DNA from: Curtobacterium sp. MCBA15_001
GTDB lineage: Bacteria > Actinomycetota > Actinomycetes > Actinomycetales > Microbacteriaceae
Reading direction: 5' to 3'
Length of the DNA: 64,000 nt
NCBI RefSeq assembly: GCF_001864835.1
Contig: NZ_MJGI01000021.1
Span: 241,822-305,821 of the forward strand
The notes beneath the pieces are model-generated. The model saw nothing but the letters and a program-made list of their open reading frames with translations, had not been told where the DNA came from and searched no databases. Numbering within the stretch: position 1 is the stretch's first letter; every line of letters starts with the position of its first letter. A program made the translations under genes and the position numbers. This document shows positions 11,203 through 20,386 of the stretch, piece after piece.

Positions 11203-12129
11203 CTACGGGATGAGGACGATCTTCCCCCGGGTGTGCCCCTGCTCGAGCTCCTCGAAGGCGTCCTGCACGCGCTCGAGCGGGTAGGTCGCGGCGACCGGCA
11301 CCTCGATCGCACCCTCGGCGACCATCTGCGCCAGCGCGCCGAGGATCTCCGGGTCGGCGGTGTCCGCGCTGCCTGAGGCCTTCGCCCCGACCTCGGCCGC
11401 GGCCGCGAACGCGATGACCGTCTCGATGCGCTCGGCCGGGATCCCGAGCGCGATGCCGAGGTGGACGTACTCCGCACCGTGCGTGTCGATGAGCGCGTCG
11501 ACGCCGTTCGTGGCGAGTTCCTCGATGCGCTGCTGCAGCCCGTCGCCGTACGCGACGGGTCGGGCACGCTTCGACGCGAGCCACTCGTGGTTCGCTTCGG
11601 ACGCGACGGCGATCACGTCGATGCCCTCGTTCGTGAGCAGCTGCGTGACGAACCCACCCACGCCACCCGCGGCACCGGAGACCACGACGGTCTCCCCCGC
11701 CCTCGGGTCGACGGCGCGCACGGCTGCGGCCGCGGTCGTCGCGACGATGTCCAGGCCACCGGCGACCGTCCAGTCCAGCAGCCGGGGCTTCTGCACGACC
11801 TGCTCCGCGGGGACGGAGACGTACTCGGCCTGGCTCGAGCGCTCCCACGACCAGCCGAGGACCTCTTCGCGCTCGTCCACGCCGTCGACGCCCTCGCCGA
11901 CCGCGACGACGATGCCCGCGAAGTCGGTGCCCTGGCCGGTCGGCAGGTCGCCGCCGAACACTCCTTGGCGGATCGCGGCCTCGCCGGGGTTGATCCCGGC
12001 GGCACGGACCCGGACGAGCACCCGCCCGGGCTCGACGGTGGGCACGGGGACGTCGGCCACGTGCAGCACGCTCCGGTCGCCCCACGCCTCGATGCGGACG
12101 GCTCGCATGGTCTCAGGAAGATCGCTCAT
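11203..12129 (-). CDS. MDR-family NADP-dependent quinone oxidoreductase-like protein
   Basis: Medium-chain dehydrogenase/reductase of 308 residues lacking the catalytic zinc cysteines, like zeta-crystallin/quinone reductases. An N-terminal GroES-like fold (INPGEAAIRQG, GTDFAGIV) is followed by a Rossmann domain with VVVSGAAGGVGGF. It would reduce quinones or enones with NADPH in the cytoplasm. ATG 12129 was preferred; TAGCGT lies eight bases upstream. Divergent from the shikimate-dehydrogenase-like gene, which starts 95 bases away. Confidence 0.88.
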   Translation of the reverse strand: MSDLPETMRAVRIEAWGDRSVLHVADVPVPTVEPGRVLVRVRAAGINPGEAAIRQGVFGGDLPTGQGTDFAGIVVAVGEGVDGVDEREEVLGWSWERSSQAEYVSVPAEQVVQKPRLLDWTVAGGLDIVATTAAAAVRAVDPRAGETVVVSGAAGGVGGFVTQLLTNEGIDVIAVASEANHEWLASKRARPVAYGDGLQQRIEELATNGVDALIDTHGAEYVHLGIALGIPAERIETVIAFAAAAEVGAKASGSADTADPEILGALAQMVAEGAIEVPVAATYPLERVQDAFEELEQGHTRGKIVLIP

Positions 12130-12223
12130 CCCGTCCGACGCTACCCCCGGTCGGTCGATCCCCCTGAGTGGAGCGGTCCATCGGCGTGGCAGCCGGGTCG
12201 TGTGACCGTGCGACACTGGCCCC

Positions 12224-13042
12224 ATGCCCATCCTCCACAAGGACATGCAGGTCTGCATCTCGCTCGCTGCCCGGCCGAGCAACATCGGCACCCGGTTCCA
12301 CAACTTCCTCTACGACGAGCTCGGGCTGGACTTCGTCTACAAGGCGTTCACGACGACCGACCTGCCCGGCGCCGTCACCGGGATCCGCGCGCTCGGCATC
12401 CGCGGTTGCTCGGTCTCGATGCCCTTCAAGGAGGCGATCATCCCGCTCGTCGACACGATCGAGGACTCGGCCGCGGCGATCCAGTCCGTCAACACCGTGG
12501 TGAACGACGACGGCGTGCTCACCGCGTCGAACACCGACTACGAGGCCGTCGCGTCACTCCTGGCCTCGCACGACGTCGACACCGGCTCGCGGGTGCTGCT
12601 GCGCGGTTCCGGCGGCATGGCGAAGGCCGTCACCGCGGCCTTCCGCGGCGCGGGCTTCGACCACCTGACCGTGGTCGCCCGGAACGAGGACACCGGTCCC
12701 GCCCTGGCCGACCAGTACGGCTACGCCTGGTCGCGCTCCGAGGCCGAGGCCGGCGACGCCGACCTGCTCGTCAACGTCACGCCGCTCGGCATGGACGGCG
12801 AGCAGGCGAACGCGCTCGCGTTCGAGCCGGACCGCATCGCTGCGGCGCACACCGTCTTCGACGTCGTCGCCTTCCCGTCGGAGACCCCGCTCGTGCGCGC
12901 CGGTCGGGCCGCCGACAAGCACGTCATCACGGGCGCCGAGGTCATCGCGCTGCAGGCAGCGCGGCAGTTCGAGCGGTACACCGGCGTCGCCCTGACCGAC
13001 GACCAGGTGCAGCGCGCGAGCGCGTTCAGCCGCACCGTCTGA
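12224..13042 (+). CDS. Shikimate dehydrogenase family protein
   Basis: NADP-dependent enzyme of 272 residues. The catalytic pair is present: Lys69 in MPFKEA and Asp105 in SNTDY. The nucleotide-binding loop GSGGMAKAV begins near 128. It departs from housekeeping AroE in lacking the SxS shikimate contacts at the start (it reads ISLAARPSN), so the substrate may be quinate or another cyclohexane acid; no aromatic-pathway genes adjoin it. GACACT lies six bases before the ATG, near the leaderless pattern. A family hairpin terminator follows the stop. Confidence 0.8.
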   Translation: MPILHKDMQVCISLAARPSNIGTRFHNFLYDELGLDFVYKAFTTTDLPGAVTGIRALGIRGCSVSMPFKEAIIPLVDTIEDSAAAIQSVNTVVNDDGVLTASNTDYEAVASLLASHDVDTGSRVLLRGSGGMAKAVTAAFRGAGFDHLTVVARNEDTGPALADQYGYAWSRSEAEAGDADLLVNVTPLGMDGEQANALAFEPDRIAAAHTVFDVVAFPSETPLVRAGRAADKHVITGAEVIALQAARQFERYTGVALTDDQVQRASAFSRTV

Positions 13043-13044
13043 CA

Positions 13045-13084
13045 GACGGGAGGAGCGCGGCGGGCCCGCCACGGGCCTCCCGTC
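13045..13084. terminator. Hairpin between convergent genes (GACGGGAGG family)
   Basis: GACGGGAGG (13045-13053) pairs perfectly with CCTCCCGTC (13076-13084), starting three bases after the shikimate-dehydrogenase-like stop and ending seven bases before the SRPBCC stop on the other strand. It serves both genes. Same core as hairpins at 21098, 32903, 42604 and 55029. Confidence 0.7.
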
Positions 13085-13091
13085 CGGTGCG

Positions 13092-13535
13092 TCAGCTGTT
13101 CCGGGCGCGACCGGCCGCGACCCAGCCGAGCCGACGGATGCTCTCGTGGTTGCGGATCCAGATGCCGGGCTGGGCGATGAAGCCGGGCACCAGCGAGCCG
13201 GGGCCCCGCACGGGGTTCTCCCGCAGCGTGACCTTGCAGCCGCGGGGATGTGGTTCCACATCGACCTCGACGCGGGCCTCACCCATCGGCCAGCCCCGCG
13301 CCTGGATCACCAACCGCCGCGGTTCGTCGAGCTCGAGCACGGTCGTGGTGTCGTTGATGACGAGCGGCCAGATGCCGAAGGAGTGGTGGATCTCCGTGCC
13401 GACCGCCGGCCAGCCGGGGTCCTCGCCGCGCATGCGGGACGCGCCGACCACCCACGTGGGGTAGAGCCAGCCGTCGCTGAGCACGTCGAAGACGTCCTCG
13501 GGCGAGCAGTGGACGATGCGGACGTTCTTGGCCAT
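13092..13535 (-). CDS. SRPBCC family (polyketide cyclase/START-like) protein
   Basis: 147-residue single-domain protein with the SRPBCC pattern: a start of the type NVRIVHCSPEDVFDVLSDGWLY, the alternating strands of the ligand pocket, and a C-terminal helix. Such proteins bind hydrophobic ligands or aid cyclase reactions. The gene begins five bases after the phytoene-desaturase-like gene ends, so both are one transcription unit and probably act on the same lipid or isoprenoid-like substrate. Exact function unknown. Confidence 0.82.
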   Translation of the reverse strand: MAKNVRIVHCSPEDVFDVLSDGWLYPTWVVGASRMRGEDPGWPAVGTEIHHSFGIWPLVINDTTTVLELDEPRRLVIQARGWPMGEARVEVDVEPHPRGCKVTLRENPVRGPGSLVPGFIAQPGIWIRNHESIRRLGWVAAGRARNS

Positions 13536-13540
13536 GGTGA

Positions 13541-14986
13541 TCAGTCCTCCGGAGACAGGTCGACGTCCTCCGACAGCCCGAAGGTGTGTCGCAGTGCGCT
13601 CCGTGCAGCATGCCACCCGGCCATGCCGTGCACACCGGGGCCGGGTGCCGCCGACTGCGACGACAGGTACATGCCGCCGCCCATCCGCCACGGGTCGCTC
13701 GACAGGACCGGGCGCTTGACCAGCTGCCAGAAGCTCGCGGCGCCGGCCGCGATGTCGCCGCCGACGTAGTTGGGGTTGTACTCGCCCATCTGCACCGCGG
13801 TCCGCGCGCTCGACGCCAGCACGGTGTCGCGGAAGCCCGGTGCGAAGCGCTCGATCTGCCGGGTGACGGCCTCGGTCGGGTCGATCGTCGACCCCGCGGG
13901 GACGTGTGCGTACGCCCAGAAGACGTGCTTGCCGGCGGGAGCACGCGACGGGTCCATGACCGTGGGCTCGGCGCCGAGCACGTACGGCTGCTCGGCGTGC
14001 TGCCCACGCGCGACGGCCTCCTCGGCCGCGGCGATCTCCTGCCGGGTGCCGCCGATGTGCACGGTGCCGGCGCGGCGCAGGTCGGCGTTCGTCCACGGCA
14101 CGGCATCGGAGAGGGCGAAGTCGACCTTCGCTGCCGCGTTGCCGAACCGGAAGCGGCGCAGCGCCCCTCGACGCGGGATCGGGATCTGGCTGCCGGCGAT
14201 CCGCAGCATGCCCGGCACGCTCGTGTCGAACAGCACGGCCTTGGCAGGGGTCAGGTCGCCGAGCGAACGCACCTCACGGCCGGTCTCGATCGTGCCGCCG
14301 TGTGCCAGCAGGTCCGCGGCGAGCGCGTCGACGATCGCCTGGCTGCCACCGATCGGCACCGGCCAGCCCCGGGCGTGTGCGTACGAGCCGAGCGACAGTG
14401 CCGCGGCGGCCGTCGACAGCGAGGGCATGTGCTGGATCGAGTGCGCCGCGACGCCGGACACCATCGCCGGGGCGACGTCCTGCCGGAACCGGGCGTTCCA
14501 CGCGCTGCTGCCCTGTTCGAGCGCACGCAGCCCGAAGCGCAGGACCGTCAGCGGGTGCCGCGGGACGTGCAGCAGCGCGTCGGTGGCGAAGTCGGCGACC
14601 TGGTCGGCACTCGCGGCGAGCGGTCCCATCAGGTTCCGGAAGGCCGCGCCGTCCGCCCCGAGCTGGGCGGCCGTGCGCTCCAGGTCCTGGTACGCGATGC
14701 CCGCGCGGCCGTTGTCGAGCGGGTGGCCGTACTGCACCTCGGGCAGGCGCAGCTCGATGCGGCGCTCCATCTGGAACAGCCGGAAGAACTCGGACTGCAG
14801 CGCCATCGGGTGTACGGCGGAGCAGACGTCGTGGTGGAAGCCCGGCAGCGTGAGCTCGGCCGTGCGTGCTCCCCCGCCGATGGTGTCGTTGCGCTCGACG
14901 ACCTCGACGGACAACCCGGCGCGCGCCAGGGTCACCGCAGCAGCGAGCCCGTTGGGTCCCGCCCCGACCACCACTGCATCGACCAT
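13541..14986 (-). CDS. Phytoene desaturase-like FAD-dependent oxidoreductase
   Basis: Flavoprotein of 481 residues. The dinucleotide-binding motif VVVGAGPNGLAAA begins at residue 6, followed by the GG-doublet region (ERNDTIGGGART) of the CrtI/amine oxidase superfamily; a C-terminal FAD segment is also present. Closer in pattern to the PYROXD2-like group than to true carotenoid CrtI, and no other carotenoid genes are nearby. ATG 14986 has TAGGCT seven bases upstream (leaderless). First gene of a two-gene operon with the SRPBCC protein. Confidence 0.87.
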   Translation of the reverse strand: MVDAVVVGAGPNGLAAAVTLARAGLSVEVVERNDTIGGGARTAELTLPGFHHDVCSAVHPMALQSEFFRLFQMERRIELRLPEVQYGHPLDNGRAGIAYQDLERTAAQLGADGAAFRNLMGPLAASADQVADFATDALLHVPRHPLTVLRFGLRALEQGSSAWNARFRQDVAPAMVSGVAAHSIQHMPSLSTAAAALSLGSYAHARGWPVPIGGSQAIVDALAADLLAHGGTIETGREVRSLGDLTPAKAVLFDTSVPGMLRIAGSQIPIPRRGALRRFRFGNAAAKVDFALSDAVPWTNADLRRAGTVHIGGTRQEIAAAEEAVARGQHAEQPYVLGAEPTVMDPSRAPAGKHVFWAYAHVPAGSTIDPTEAVTRQIERFAPGFRDTVLASSARTAVQMGEYNPNYVGGDIAAGAASFWQLVKRPVLSSDPWRMGGGMYLSSQSAAPGPGVHGMAGWHAARSALRHTFGLSEDVDLSPED

Positions 14987-15034
14987 GCGACCGAGCCTAC
15001 GAGTCCTGTACCCCGTGGGTGCTCAGCCGGTCGA

Positions 15035-15727
15035 TCAGATCACCGCTCGTCCCTCGTCGATGACGCAGTCCCGGCGCGCGAGGACCTCGTCGATCCGATG
15101 AGCACCGCGGAGGAACTGTTCTGCATCGGTGTCGATGAACCCCGCGATCTCGAGGACATCATCCCGGACGCGTTCGAGTGGAGCGCCGATGATCGGCTCG
15201 TGGTGCGCGAGGCGGTTGCGGAAGCGTCGGACTTCATCGAGCCTGCGGTGCAGCTGCTTGCGTCGGACCGTTCGCAGGCCGGGAAAGGCACGGACCATTC
15301 GAGGCTGCCACAGTGTGGTCTCGTAGCCGAATCGCGGGTCACGAGGGATGCCCGCGTCGGTGAGCCCAACCCAGAGTCCGAAGCTCGTGGCAGCCACGAC
15401 GTCATCCGCGGACGGCTCGTCCACGCCGCGACGCTGGAGGGTCGAGATCGCCCCGTCGACCGCGCGACGCTCGCGCTGCATCAGGTGTACAGCGGGATCG
15501 TTCCACCAGTCATCTGCACGGCCGGCTCGGAGGGCATCGTGAACGGCGTTCCGCAGGAGGACCTCGAGCCAGGCGATCGGGCCCCAGAAGGCAGTCGTGA
15601 GCTCCGTGTTCCAGGCGTAGAGCCTGAGCGCCCGGTGGACATGGCCGTCCTGGAGGGCCATGAAGCGCGCCAGCCGTGGCGCGCTGATGCGGTCCGGTAA
15701 GGCTCGGAACCGTGCGGGATCGATCAT
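15035..15727 (-). CDS. Abi-like (abortive infection) family protein
   Basis: 230-residue protein of the Abi_2/AbiD-AbiF group. It shows the conserved N-terminal segment RLYAWNTELTTAFW, the LEVLLRNAVHDAL helix and the C-terminal RNRLAHHEPI motif (a HEPN-like RNase signature, R-x4-H). Family members cause growth arrest on phage infection or act as toxins. ATG 15727 was chosen because the promoter at 15799-15826 excludes the longer reading frame; a GGGGGGAG site lies just upstream. No antitoxin gene is adjacent, so this looks like a solo defence gene. Confidence 0.85.
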   Translation of the reverse strand: MIDPARFRALPDRISAPRLARFMALQDGHVHRALRLYAWNTELTTAFWGPIAWLEVLLRNAVHDALRAGRADDWWNDPAVHLMQRERRAVDGAISTLQRRGVDEPSADDVVAATSFGLWVGLTDAGIPRDPRFGYETTLWQPRMVRAFPGLRTVRRKQLHRRLDEVRRFRNRLAHHEPIIGAPLERVRDDVLEIAGFIDTDAEQFLRGAHRIDEVLARRDCVIDEGRAVI

Positions 15728-15732
15728 CCACT

Positions 15733-15787
15733 CCCCCCAGGAACGACGATTGCCCCAGGAGTCCGGCTGGCCGAATGGTCCTGGGGC
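15733..15787 (-). promoter_or_regulatory. Structured leader of the Abi-like gene, possible translational switch
   Basis: In the roughly 65-base leader, arm A (GCCCCAGGA, 15787-15779) can pair with arm B (TCCTGGGGC, 15760-15752, 9 bp) or with arm C (TCCTGGGG, 15742-15735, 8 bp). Arm C overlaps the ribosome site GGGGGGAG. The A:B form leaves the site open; the A:C form closes it. Reading of a switch is inference; the three arms are seen directly. Confidence 0.5.
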
Positions 15788-15798
15788 GTTACAAGACG

Positions 15799-15826
15799 AT
15801 CGTACCAGCCGTGCCTGACATGTCAA
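15799..15826 (-). promoter_or_regulatory. Strong promoter of the Abi-like gene
   Basis: On the minus strand TTGACA (15826-15821) and TACGAT (15804-15799) are separated by 16 bases, the best housekeeping-type promoter in the window. The TGA stop of the preceding membrane-protein gene lies inside the -35 box. A 10-bp palindrome TGACATGTCA (15816-15825) overlaps the -35 and could bind a repressor. Confidence 0.7.
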
Positions 15827-16335
15827 GCATCAGATCGGATCGTGCGTTCGCGCAGCCGGTCGCGGACGACGTCCGCCGTGCCCGCCGGGTCCGCACACTG
15901 CACGACGTACTCGTGACCCGCGGTCGTGACGATGGACAGCGCGAGCCGGTTGCCGAGGATCAGCCCGGTCCGCCCCCGGAGCCACCGCAGCCCCGCGCCA
16001 CCGAACTCGGACCACGACTGCTCGACGGTCCGCACGGTCTCGATGTCAGTCAGCCCGATCGTCCGGCGGTACACCGGACGGAAGCGGACGGTGACCTCGT
16101 CGCGGACCGTCACCGAGACCGATCCGGCGACCATCACGACACCGACAGCGAGCACGAGCAGTCCCGGCGCCAGCGTCATCACCGCGAACCCGGCGCCAGC
16201 CTCGGCGACGACGGCCCACACGAGTACGACGACGGCCACGAAGGACAGCACCAGCGTCGCGCCGACCGCCTGCATCCAGGCGGGCGTCGCGATCCGGTCG
16301 ACCACAGGGGTGCGGTCTGACCCCGGGGCGCGCAC
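15823..16335 (-). CDS. Membrane protein with PH-like C-terminal domain, unknown function
   Basis: 170-residue protein not assigned to a named family. Two adjacent membrane helices (about residues 20-45 and 50-72) are followed by a soluble beta-rich half (VTVRFRPVYRRTIGLTDIETV) that resembles bacterial PH-like domains of small membrane proteins. GTG 16335 directly follows the stop of the upstream gene (TGAGTG) and is preceded by GGAGGA, so the two are translated together. Function unknown; an envelope role is the general expectation. Confidence 0.7.
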   Translation of the reverse strand: MRAPGSDRTPVVDRIATPAWMQAVGATLVLSFVAVVVLVWAVVAEAGAGFAVMTLAPGLLVLAVGVVMVAGSVSVTVRDEVTVRFRPVYRRTIGLTDIETVRTVEQSWSEFGGAGLRWLRGRTGLILGNRLALSIVTTAGHEYVVQCADPAGTADVVRDRLRERTIRSDA

Positions 16336-16566
16336 TCAGTCCTCCGACTTCGATCGCTGGGCACGGAGCCGGGCAGCCGTCCCCGCCAGGACGATCGCGG
16401 CCCAGAGGACGACTCCCCCGACCACGCGCTGCACGACCGACACCGGGCCGCCATGCCCGGAGGAGATCGCGGCGCTCAGCATGACCAGGACCGCGCTGAC
16501 GGGCAGGGGGATGCGGAGCGTGAGGCACGGGCGGAGAAGACGGCGAACGAACACGAGAGCGGCCAC
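16336..16566 (-). CDS. Small membrane protein, unknown function
   Basis: 76-residue protein with two predicted membrane helices (about 20-35 and 44-66) and a basic tail ending RLRAQRSKSED. GTG 16566 is the start; GACAGT lies five bases upstream, a weak leaderless-type signal. It abuts the PH-like membrane protein gene, with which it surely forms an operon. No family recognised. Confidence 0.6.
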   Translation of the reverse strand: MAALVFVRRLLRPCLTLRIPLPVSAVLVMLSAAISSGHGGPVSVVQRVVGGVVLWAAIVLAGTAARLRAQRSKSED

Positions 16567-16596
16567 ACGTCACTGTCGCACAATCCGCGGGAGTAA

Positions 16597-17682
<1,086 letters not shown>

Positions 17683-17708
17683 CCGCCCGGCGTCGCACCC
17701 CCTGACGA

Positions 17709-17740
17709 ACATCGCACCCCGGCGTACCGGGGTGCGATGT
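17709..17740. terminator. Perfect 14-bp hairpin between convergent genes
   Basis: ACATCGCACCCCGG (17709-17722) and its exact complement (17727-17740) flank a CGTA loop. It lies between the DUF4190-type gene and the GNAT gene, which converge, so it can end both. The half-unit CACCGGGGTGCGA recurs at once (17744-17756). Confidence 0.8.
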
Positions 17741-17775
17741 CCACACCGGGGTGCGAAGCGGCGGAGGACGGTCCG

Positions 17776-18303
17776 TCAGAGCACCAGGCCGTACACGGCG
17801 ACGTCGACGCGCCGCTCCCCCAGCGGCATGCCGCTCCGCAGCGTCCCCTCGTGCACGAAGCCGAGCCGTTCGGCCAGGCCACGACTGCGCACGTTCTCAG
17901 CCGCCGTGCGGATCTCGACCCGGCGCGCGCCCCGCGCCCGCGCGACCCCGACGAGTGCGGAGGCCGCGCGCCGGGCGACACCCCGGCCCTCCAGTCCGGC
18001 GTCCACCCAGTAACCGAGGGATGCCTGTCCCAGGTACGTGTCGAACGCGAGGGACGCTGCTCCGACGATCCGGTCGTCGGCGCGGATGACGCACGGCAGT
18101 GAGCGGTCCAGGGCGTACTGGCCGAGCAGGTGCTCGGTGTAGCGCTCGGTGCCCGCGCGCGTCTGCGGGCCCCACGCCCACGGTTCCGCGGCCCGCAGGC
18201 GGTCCAGGTTCGCCAGCACCAGCTCGTGCACGGGTCGGACCGTCGTCAGGTCGCGGAGCGTCAGCGTGTACCCGTCACCCAGGTCCCGTCCGTACGCCAC
18301 CAC
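17776..18303 (-). CDS. GNAT family N-acetyltransferase (RimJ/RimL-like)
   Basis: Acetyl-CoA dependent transferase of 175 residues. The pattern fits the ribosomal-protein alanine acetyltransferase group: an N-terminal TLTLRDLTTVRPVHELV, the central strand IVGAASLAFDTYLGQASLGYWV, and the acetyl-CoA loop region GLEGRGVARRAA; the C-terminus GTLRSGMPLGERRVDVAVYGL is typical. GTG 18303 is backed by TAGTGT six bases upstream (leaderless). Target unknown. Confidence 0.87.
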   Translation of the reverse strand: MVAYGRDLGDGYTLTLRDLTTVRPVHELVLANLDRLRAAEPWAWGPQTRAGTERYTEHLLGQYALDRSLPCVIRADDRIVGAASLAFDTYLGQASLGYWVDAGLEGRGVARRAASALVGVARARGARRVEIRTAAENVRSRGLAERLGFVHEGTLRSGMPLGERRVDVAVYGLVL

Positions 18304-18321
18304 GGCTCGACACTATGCACG

Positions 18322-18361
18322 CGCAGCGGGCCCCGTCCGGGTGTGGACGAGGCCCGCTGCG
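18322..18361 (-). terminator. Terminator of the MacB-type exporter operon
   Basis: CGCAGCGGGCC (18322-18332) pairs with GGCCCGCTGCG (18351-18361); an inner CGTCC/GGACG pair extends the stem. It starts 23 bases past the permease stop on the minus strand. Confidence 0.7.
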
Positions 18362-18383
18362 TCATCGGGACGAGGAGTGCGCG

Positions 18384-19661
18384 CTACTCGTAGCGGAGGG
18401 CCTCGATCGGGTTCTGTCGTGCCGCGCGACGAGCCGGCAGCGTGCCGGCGAGGAACGCGATGAACATCACCACGAGGATGATCGTGATCACCGAGGACGG
18501 CGCGAACTGCATGATCTGCAGGCCCGGCAGGTCCTTGAGCACGGTGCCGGCGAGCACGTTCGAGATGCCCGTGCCGAGCGCGATCGCCACGCCGGCGCCG
18601 ATCGCACTGCCGAGGAAGCCGATGAACACCGCCTCGAGCGAGAACAGCGTGTAGACCTTGCCGCCGCCCATGCCCATCGCCTTCATCAGGCCGATCTCGC
18701 GGGTGCGCTCCTGCACGCTCATGAGCAGCGTGTTGATGATGCCGAACCCGGCGGCGATCAGCGCGATCACGGCGAAGGCGTTGAGCACCCCGACGATGCC
18801 GCTGATGACGGTCTGGAACTGCCCGAGCTGGTCCTGGATCGTCTGGCCCGTGTAGCCGTCCTTCGACAGGGCGCTCTTGACCGTCGCTGCCGAGGCACCG
18901 GACGACATCGTGGCCGAGGCGCTGGCGTACGACGTGGCGATCGACGCGGGCTTGCCGGTCTCCTGCGCGGCCTGTATGGCGTCGGTCAGGGCGGCGTTCG
19001 CCCCGGCGCCGCCACCGAACAGTGACTCGTTCTGCACGCCGACGACCGTGGCCGTCAGGGTGTGCTCCGCGCCCTGGTAGTCGTCGACCGCGAAGGTCAC
19101 CTGCTTGCCGACGGCCGCGTCCGCACTGCCGAGCCCGAGGTTCTTGAGGTAGTTCGTGGGCAGGACCACCTGGTTCGCGTCGGTGCCGTCGTCGAGCTGC
19201 TTCCCCGAGGCCAGGTCGGCCTTGATCTCGCCCGCGTTGGCGGTCAGCGTCACGACGTACTTGCCCTTGCCGTCGTACTCGGCGTACTTCGGGCTGAGGG
19301 CGACGGCGGGCCGGACCGAGTCGATCCCGGACACGCCCTTGATCTTCGTGACGTCGGACTGGGACAGGTACGCGAAGGACGCGGGCCCACGGTTGACGCT
19401 CTGGCTGGACTCGTCGGGGTCGTACTTCGCCGGGCCGCCGTCACTCGAGCCGGTGTCGGCGGTCTTGGTGATCGTCAGCGTGCCGGTGTCGCCGATCGAG
19501 GCCACCTGGGTGTCGATGTAGTTGCTGACGCCCGTACCGATCGCCGAGGTGAGCGTGATGGTGAACGCGCCGATGAAGATCGCGATGACGGTGAGCGTGG
19601 TGCGGAGCTTCGACCGGAAGGTGTTGCCGATCGCGGTGCGGAGCAGGTCGAGGAAGTTCAT
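18384..19661 (-). CDS. ABC transporter permease, MacB/FtsX type
   Basis: 425-residue inner-membrane subunit. One helix near the N-terminus (about 20-40) is followed by a large extracytoplasmic MacB-like domain (about 50-280) and three C-terminal helices (about 285-405) ending in ARRAARQNPIEALRYE, the family tail. With the adjacent ATPase it forms an exporter or mechanotransmission complex for drugs, peptides or lipoproteins. ATG 19661 overlaps the ATPase stop by four bases. The cluster is divergent from a TetR gene, which points to a drug or envelope-stress pump. Confidence 0.92.
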   Translation of the reverse strand: MNFLDLLRTAIGNTFRSKLRTTLTVIAIFIGAFTITLTSAIGTGVSNYIDTQVASIGDTGTLTITKTADTGSSDGGPAKYDPDESSQSVNRGPASFAYLSQSDVTKIKGVSGIDSVRPAVALSPKYAEYDGKGKYVVTLTANAGEIKADLASGKQLDDGTDANQVVLPTNYLKNLGLGSADAAVGKQVTFAVDDYQGAEHTLTATVVGVQNESLFGGGAGANAALTDAIQAAQETGKPASIATSYASASATMSSGASAATVKSALSKDGYTGQTIQDQLGQFQTVISGIVGVLNAFAVIALIAAGFGIINTLLMSVQERTREIGLMKAMGMGGGKVYTLFSLEAVFIGFLGSAIGAGVAIALGTGISNVLAGTVLKDLPGLQIMQFAPSSVITIILVVMFIAFLAGTLPARRAARQNPIEALRYE

Positions 19662-20386
19662 GCGGAGTGCCTTCCGTGCTCATGGGTCGCCGGGGCGGGC
19701 GCATCGGACCCGCCGACGATCAGGCCGTCGCGCACGTTCACGCTCCGGTCGCACCGCGCGGCCAGCTCCTCGTCGTGGGTGACGACGACCAGGGTGATCC
19801 CCCGCTCGCGCTGCAGGCCGAACAGCAGGTCCTCGACGATCTCGCCCGTGTTCGAGTCGAGGTTGCCGGTCGGTTCGTCGGCGAAGATGACGCTCGGCTC
19901 CCCCACCAGCGCCCGCGCGATGACCACGCGCTGCTTCTGGCCGCCGGACAGGTCGTTCGCGTCGCTCTTGGCCTTGTCCGCCAGCCCGAGGGCATCGAGT
20001 GCGGCCATCCCGCGCCGCTTGCGCTCGGACGCCGAGACGCCGGCGATCTTCAGCGGCAGCACGACGTTGTCGAGCACGGAGGTCTTCGGCGTCAGGAAGA
20101 ACTGCTGGAACACGAACCCGAACGTGCTGTTGCGGGTGCGGTTCACCTCCCGGGCGCCGAGGGACGCCGCGTCGGTGCCGTCGAGCAGGACCTCGCCCGT
20201 CGACGGCTTGTCGAGCAACGCCAGCAGGTGCATGAGCGTCGACTTGCCCGATCCGGACTTGCCGACGATCGCCAGGCTCTCGCCCTGGTGCACGGCCAGG
20301 GAGACGCCCTTCAGCGCGTCAAACCGTGTGGAGCCACGGCCGTAGGTCCTCGTGAGGCCACGGGCCTCGAGCACGGGAGTCGTCAT
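19658..20386 (-). CDS. ABC transporter ATP-binding protein, MacB/LolD type
   Basis: 242-residue ATPase with Walker A GKSGSGKST (42-50), signature LSGGQKQRV, Walker B and switch VIFADEPTGNLD, and the usual H-loop in VVVTHDEE. Partner of the permease that follows. ATG 20386 was chosen over a longer frame because TACGGT lies exactly six bases upstream (leaderless) and the protein then begins with the family-typical VLEARGLTRTYG. Divergent from the TetR gene, whose operator lies in the 80-base gap. Confidence 0.93.
   Translation of the reverse strand: MTTPVLEARGLTRTYGRGSTRFDALKGVSLAVHQGESLAIVGKSGSGKSTLMHLLALLDKPSTGEVLLDGTDAASLGAREVNRTRNSTFGFVFQQFFLTPKTSVLDNVVLPLKIAGVSASERKRRGMAALDALGLADKAKSDANDLSGGQKQRVVIARALVGEPSVIFADEPTGNLDSNTGEIVEDLLFGLQRERGITLVVVTHDEELAARCDRSVNVRDGLIVGGSDAPAPATHEHGRHSA

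Follow-up and report, generated by a model that had tools for sequence, protein, structure and literature searches.

Organization of the locus

The window, i.e. the whole stretch of 64,000 nt of Curtobacterium sp. MCBA15_001 DNA that was analysed, encodes on its minus strand a HEPN protein, preceded by a promoter and a leader. The features of the locus are the following (window coordinates).

15823-16335, minus strand: preceding gene, 170 aa, its stop codon overlapping the -35 element
15826-15821, minus strand: -35 element TTGACA (promoter scan)
15816-15825, minus strand: palindrome TGACATGTCA over the -35 element, of doubtful significance
15804-15799, minus strand: -10 element TACGAT, 6 nt 5' of the RNA (promoter scan)
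15752-15792, minus strand: structured RNA of ~41 nt, proposed antitoxin (model R1 match, identity, covariation)
15787-15779, minus strand: arm A, the P1 5' arm, GCCCCAGGA, pairing with arm B
15762-15775, minus strand: inner hairpin P2, UUCGG/CCGGA (folding and alignment)
15760-15752, minus strand: arm B, the P1 3' arm, TCCTGGGGC, 9 bp with arm A
15742-15735, minus strand: arm C, TCCTGGGG, overlapping the Shine-Dalgarno sequence, not conserved as a partner of arm A
15738-15731, minus strand: Shine-Dalgarno sequence GGGGGGAG (from sequence)
15035-15727, minus strand: HEPN AbiD/F-like protein of the PD-T4-5 group, 230 aa, ATG at 15727 (PADLOC, fold, RxxxxH)

The promoter TTGACA-N16-TACGAT, which a preliminary description had rated the best of the window, is the sole 10/12 match in 64 kb, the runner-up reaching 9 (first hexamer at least 4/6, spacer of 15-19 nt; positions 12000-20000 were also scanned). 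The same description had placed it inside the end of the preceding gene; the stop codon of that gene does overlap the -35 element, but the coding sequence ends at 15823 and the promoter merely touches it. A Pfam search with the 170-aa product at E 0.01 gave no match. Similarly, the palindrome TGACATGTCA does overlap the -35 element as described, but the overlap is unremarkable, perfect 10-nt palindromes being present 166 times in the window; of this common kind and, by eye, absent from the relatives compared, the palindrome was rejected as an operator. Another dyad, GGTACTTGATRTACC, is found on the -35 element in the promoters of G003, G007, G008, G023 and G050. It occurs once per genome in these 5/66 genus genomes, solely at this promoter, and is therefore a possible local operator.

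The encoded protein

The protein matches the PADLOC model of PD-T4-5 (E 5.7e-18, 63.2 bits, residues 13-179; no curated cut-off is given for this model) and that of AbiD at E 0.017. With 19.1 bits (E 0.0017) it stays under the gathering cut-off of Pfam Abi_2 (25.6), which L014, L055 and L101 pass among eight relatives scanned. An NCBIfam search of the window protein gave no match, and PHROGs returned one family of unknown function (E 3e-7). The catalytic motif R170-N-R-L-A-H175, corresponding to the HEPN RxxxxH of AbiF-type toxin-antitoxin (TA) systems, is intact, R170 and H175 being invariant in 39/39 rows. An AlphaFold2 model generated from these 39 rows (pLDDT 96, pTM 0.90) has as its best fold match the PbAbiF dimer with its ncRNA (PDB code: 8VZ6_A; rmsd 3.0 over 200 residues), with a Z of 12.5 that lies just under the caution line of ~13 for helical bundles but far above the rest of the list, in which Csm6 comes next (Z 6.0). 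Foldseek also ranked 8VZ6_A first, with a probability of 0.99 but an E of 0.15, while a sequence-profile search retrieved 8VZ6 at a mere E of 0.057, below chance-like designed proteins. The modelled fold of the window protein is AbiF-like, and the gene probably encodes an RNA-cutting toxin of phage defence; the PD-T4-5 match, the fold and the intact motif all agree with the Abi-like toxin gene first proposed.

A conserved and covarying hairpin in the leader

The three leader arms had been noticed before, A being able to pair with B (9 bp) or with C (8 bp) and C overlapping the Shine-Dalgarno sequence, and all are present as claimed. In the alignment of relatives, which were sought in 66 genus genomes and in genome contigs (the best 80 of 366 relatives there), P1 (A:B) together with P2 has 98.7% of its cells paired, G-U cells included, and three pairs show changes on both sides. 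Its covariation score is reached by none of 500 shuffles, while the count of further pair types is ordinary (183/500 shuffles). Seven of the nine P1 pairs are invariant in this close set and are therefore uninformative on covariation. In farther co-directional relatives (L043, L044, L045) P1 is rewritten with pairing kept: GCCCUGGGG/CCCCAGGGC in Mycetocola, GCCCUAGGG/CCCUAGGGC in Actinomyces and GCCCCAAGG/CCUUGGGGC in Rhodococcus. The fold of the 67-nt leader alone is ordinary among shuffles (z -1.0, 30/200 equally good); its structure is supported by conservation and not by stability.

A covariance model, R1, which has the window sequence among its rows, matches 15732-15792 on the minus strand with 80.1 bits. 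Among seven Curtobacterium copies (window included) the RNA has a mean pairwise identity of 96.1%, with 39/42 columns invariant; in the same copies identity falls to 69.7% in the coding sequence, to 56.0% in the 45-nt promoter region and to 39.0% in the leader following the RNA. In the leaders of near relatives GUAACGCCCCAGGACCAUUCGGC-n-GCCGGACUCCUGGGGC is nearly invariant, and the unpaired letters of the RNA are conserved as well.

A TANNNT hexamer ends 6-7 nt 5' of the RNA in 16/17 rows, the window among them (controls: opposite strand 0/17, random positions 2/340). Because of this placement 15792 is probably the first base of the RNA; the transcript would then include arm A, and its predicted start lies upstream of that arm, as had been supposed. 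The U-tract that follows P1 is weak in the window (AATCGTCGTT); several relatives have U-rich tracts at this place. A coding extension was considered and rejected: although the frame is open 5' of the ATG, the spacing from RNA to start codon differs modulo 3 between relatives, so that the RNA lies outside the protein-coding part.

Association of RNA and toxin in the genus

Matches to the toxin protein are present in 41/66 genus genomes, that of the window included (a table of 58 rows, from which two second pieces of split genes were dropped, leaving 56 matches). In the 66 genomes R1 has 14 strong matches (58.8-85.3 bits; next 28), and a second model, R2, has 43 of at least 30 bits, those of 26.8 bits or less being left out. 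An R1 or R2 RNA accompanies 42 of the 56 toxin matches, always on their 5' side: 12 are R1 RNAs, all on the strand of the toxin, and 30 are R2 RNAs, 28 of them on the opposite strand. No R1/R2 RNA was found at the other 14/56 matches, one of which is a 5'-truncated remnant (G058, L012); among the RNA-less loci inspected (L012, L015, L017, L026 and L028), L017 and L028 have a CCCC-type hairpin of their own. The window genome itself holds a second paralog, 33% identical (L002, G000:C27:63799-64486), with a divergent-type RNA on the opposite strand.

Fifteen of 57 RNAs are solo, with no protein match within 900 nt, and five of these adjoin toxin remnants. In G007 the R1 RNA and the promoter are kept while the toxin is mostly deleted, a short C-terminal remnant being left, and in G032 the R1 site is kept and the toxin gene absent (no tblastn match). 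Toxin remnants were detected by tblastn at 4/13 solo R2 loci (L158, L163, L166 and L167), and the scores of solo R2 RNAs (35.6-49.2 bits) overlap those of toxin-adjacent ones (30.2-48.6 bits). Full-length orthologs of the window gene in the genus, the window's own included, have the RNA in 9/9 cases (the ortholog in G008 has ATA at the position of the start codon of the other copies). Where the ortholog is frameshifted, deleted or truncated, the RNA is kept in 5/6 cases (G033, G059, G027, G007 and G032; lost in G058). Such outlasting of the toxin by the RNA, as read from these genomes, is an asymmetry that an antitoxin predicts, though the small deletion target that the RNA presents could partly account for its retention.

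A divergent sister class of RNAs

Upstream of most farther relatives there is a hairpin of window-like architecture that is read away from the gene; in this sister clade (Actinomycetota and Pseudomonadota) it lies on the opposite strand behind a -10 of its own. The divergent class has the form G(U/A/C)A-n-(A/G)CCCCGG, often CCUCUGC..GCAUGC, CCGGGG(U/C), then a U-rich tract. TANNNT stands 5-8 nt before the RNA in 25 of 33 rows, chosen by stem and not by hexamer (opposite strand 2/33, random positions 4/660). The model R1 matches divergent RNAs on the antisense strand (L075 at E 1.5e-4, L140 at 1.9e-3 and L094 at 8.7e-3). The strand of the divergent RNAs is taken from the -10 and the U-tract, because R1 alone is weak for strand: it hits its own RNAs in reverse orientation, too, with 12.8-18.4 bits, and two unrelated places with 14.6-16.6 bits. 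The pairing of this class was read row by row, RNAalifold on a MAFFT alignment having been misled by rows shifted by one base.

CCC-containing stems of at least 7 bp occur within 200 nt upstream at 61/73 loci, compared with 22/283 control windows and 31/365 shuffles (among the best 80 of 366 relatives; 74 loci listed, one dropped for Ns); a few of the 61 loci, e.g. L047, L080 and L083, have another best stem. In the tree of 39 proteins a single branch (99/99) parts 14 co-directional from 24 divergent rows, the labels having been set by hand and one row being unlabelled. The arrangement of the predicted RNAs follows this tree with one change. Four loci that are absent from the tree depart from the strict layout: in the genus paralogs G035 and G012 the R2-type RNA shares the strand of the gene, and in Saccharomonospora L046/L052 the RNAs look co-directional.

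Extra copies of the divergent-type RNA lie away from a toxin start at L081:3167-3217, L047:674-743 and L053:179-232. In viral contigs the window-type and class-2 patterns had no exact match, and the alphaproteobacterial pattern was found in one contig (L176:248-266), RNA and toxin gene together.

Relation to abiF RNAs, PD-T4-5 and ToxIN

In Clostridioides difficile the toxic AbiF is neutralised, in cis as well as in trans, by the small RNA RCd22, which is encoded upstream of abiF and co-transcribed with it, according to the accessible part of PMC12373285. The window locus resembles the AbiF-RNA pairs (PbAbiF-AbiFr and AbiF-RCd22) in the AbiF-like HEPN fold with RxxxxH and in the structured RNA adjoining the toxin, on the evidence of covariation, R1 matches and association in the genus. 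With AbiF-RCd22 (PMC12373285, in the portion available) it shares the small upstream hairpin RNA, co-directional and behind one promoter, and in the window too the toxin would be made by read-through. It differs in that the RNA has a sequence and a core other than those of the Rfam abiF RNA (RF03085) and forms one hairpin, not two. Moreover, no strong terminator is seen in the window strain.

RF03085 has no match at its gathering cut-off in the window, none listed in the window genome (G000) at E 0.001, and did not score at any locus of three scanned sets (18, 20 and 4 loci, partly overlapping). It passes its cut-off elsewhere in 4/66 genus genomes, at five places that differ from those of R1 and R2. 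True Rfam abiF RNAs lie at L177 (G012:C1:2668189), with an Abi-type reading frame downstream, and at L178 (G044:C1:907395), where the frame departs from that of L177 after a similar start. More widely, no Rfam family was found at gathering in the window, and in 20 loci one tRNA alone; permissive searches gave, besides tRNAs, matches far under the cut-off.

The RF03085 and R1/R2 RNAs are alike in having an outer stem round an asymmetric inner part and in lying beside an Abi gene. In the RF03085 consensus GCCUCU and AUGCUC flank the loop. The sister class has this core: GCCUCU is present in 23/33 rows (1.4% of inner-shuffled rows), the motif having been chosen after it was noticed, and GCCUCU..AUGCUC in 8/33 (0.006% of shuffled rows). 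This shared core suggests that the divergent class is akin to the abiF RNA, although the covariance models do not join them (R2 gives a partial, non-significant match, E 4.5). GCCUCU is found in 0/17 rows of the window class. The window RNA was accordingly not filed under RF03085, because the models do not join the two and the class lacks GCCUCU.

PD-T4-5, to which the window protein is linked by its PADLOC match, is described as plasmid-borne, TA-like, abortive and distantly related to AbiF/D, with no RNA mentioned in the part of PMC9519451 that is accessible. Comamonas L140 and Nitrosospira L094 both score for PD-T4-5 and have the divergent RNA. At seven gammaproteobacterial loci (E. coli, Yersinia, three of Vibrio, Acinetobacter and Pseudomonas) the four longest stems included none of CCCC type; the four proteins scanned for PD-T4-5, those from E. 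coli, Yersinia, Acinetobacter and Pseudomonas, all score for it. Because of these loci the RNA claim is not extended to PD-T4-5 as a whole. Side observations in this group include two Vibrio plasmids (L172 and L174) that share a near-identical intergenic stretch, possibly another type of RNA, upstream of 501 before an Abi-family gene related to the PD-T4-5-like one of E. coli; an 8-bp TGCCTCTG/CAGAGGCA hairpin on a Yersinia ruckeri plasmid (L141:855-892), upstream of a PD-T4-5 match (E 1.9e-32); and a small Acinetobacter plasmid (L143) on which aadB has an Abi-family gene of this superfamily as its neighbour.

As in the layout proposed for the window, an RNA lies upstream of a ribonuclease toxin in ToxIN, both being under one promoter. 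The window system differs from such type III TA systems in its HEPN fold, and no tandem repeats, which a classic type III system would have, occur in 13000-18500.

In literature searches of a library with few subscription papers, no paper was seen that pairs an RNA with PD-T4-5 or with Abi-type HEPN genes of actinobacteria; besides the papers cited here, this covers PMC3710099, PMC10952713, PMC12016545, PMC12421847 and PMC11856565 as far as their text was available.

Proposed mechanism and alternatives

We propose that the leader hairpin is a putative AbiF-type RNA antitoxin, uncatalogued in Rfam, and put the probability of this reading at roughly 0.75. Rather than a simple folding switch, the conserved hairpin is most likely the RNA antitoxin that had seemed to be missing. 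The preliminary description had pointed out that no protein antitoxin accompanies the toxin gene and that the leader might take over control; both points agree with the present reading, in which control is probably exerted by the leader RNA. The analysis itself supports five elements: an RNA that is conserved and covaries, the constant position of this RNA behind a hexamer resembling a -10, its association with this HEPN clade, the AbiF-like fold of the protein, and RNAs that outlive the toxin. We infer where transcription starts, that the protein is bound and inhibited, that transcripts are terminated or processed, that the protein is toxic and that phage infection leads to its release.

The leader would be the two-in-one transcript of an AbiF-type toxin-antitoxin pair. 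The strong promoter would start the transcript at the G of GUAACGCCCC, and the first ~41 nt would fold into the conserved hairpin, with P1 formed by A:B and P2 inside it. The hairpin most likely binds the HEPN ribonuclease encoded downstream and holds it inactive, in the manner of the AbiF antitoxin RNAs. Free RNA would be supplied by transcripts, presumably the majority, that stop or are cleaved shortly past the hairpin, while a minority would read on into the toxin, and every toxin message would therefore bear its own antitoxin. The U-tract of the window being poor, the excess of RNA over toxin may come from termination, processing or stability.

The hairpin might instead act only in cis: it would set the level of toxin expression by attenuation or termination, and the protein would never bind it. 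Its position between promoter and start codon and the U-rich tracts of several relatives fit such a role, which we nevertheless regard as unlikely. The hairpin of the sister clade cannot be the toxin's leader, because it is encoded on the other strand and has a -10 to itself; conservation extends to letters outside the pairs, and the RNAs persist where the toxin is deleted.

Somewhat less probable still is an activating cofactor or guide, the HEPN protein needing the RNA for activity or target recognition in a Cas13-like manner. AbiD/F proteins have been placed near Cas13 (PMC12165695) and proposed as its ancestors (PMC12165695, PMC12737573), the latter being a review that covers AbiF with AbiFr and the Cas13 link, both papers as far as their text was accessible; the best fold match is, moreover, an RNA-bound AbiF. 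Against this, the R1 RNA varies mostly in its short apical loop and has no spacer-like variable stretch, the solo RNAs would be hard to explain, and the characterised AbiF RNA neutralises its protein (PMC12373285, in its available part).

The preliminary description suggested a switch: a signal such as phage infection would move the leader between A:B, with the ribosome site exposed, and A:C, in which that site is covered. The window strain does have an 8-bp A:C complementarity, and one as long arises in 0.8% of shuffles. Yet in the 70-nt leader the A:C fold (-25.8 kcal/mol) is 8.3 kcal/mol weaker than the A:B fold (-34.1 kcal/mol), with a probability of ~6e-6 at the middle pair of the A:C helix, which speaks against a leader that folds two ways. 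The A:C match, moreover, is largely the G-run of the Shine-Dalgarno sequence against CCCC. Eight Watson-Crick A:C pairs form in 1/16 leaders, that of the window strain, while three more reach seven with G-U (16 leaders with a located start codon; the alignment has 17 rows, 16 distinct). Arm C neither is conserved nor covaries as a partner of A: 66.4% of the A:C cells are paired, no better than in shuffles (133/500) and worse than after a one-column slide. On energy, occurrence and covariation the switch was rejected, and we consider it very improbable. The least probable reading takes the inverted repeat for a DNA-level operator: inverted repeats can be operators, and a different dyad, GGTACTTGATRTACC, sits on the -35 element in five genomes, but the leader repeat forms two helices with an internal loop and G-U cells among its pairs, lies downstream of the predicted start and recurs in separate opposite-strand transcription units in the sister clade.

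Implications for the superfamily

Beyond the putative antitoxin of the window clade, the comparisons incline us, with less confidence, to a wider view: small hairpin RNAs that form a widespread family, missing from the catalogues and distantly related to the abiF RNA, may be the hidden antitoxin for much of the AbiD/F-PD-T4-5 HEPN superfamily of Actinomycetota and Pseudomonadota. The family would occur in two layouts, either divergent and under a separate promoter or, in the window clade, at the head of the toxin message as its leader, and would survive alone in places, perhaps protecting against related toxins. Annotations mostly present HEPN genes of the PD-T4-5-like and AbiD/F-like kinds as solitary defence genes devoid of an antitoxin, and a conserved neighbouring RNA would explain how cells survive them. 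The RNA would also widen the set of RNA-controlled HEPN toxins, the proposed source of Cas13, and the two layouts together with the solo RNAs would be natural experiments on the ways in which an RNA can turn into a leader, into an antitoxin or into a gene of its own.
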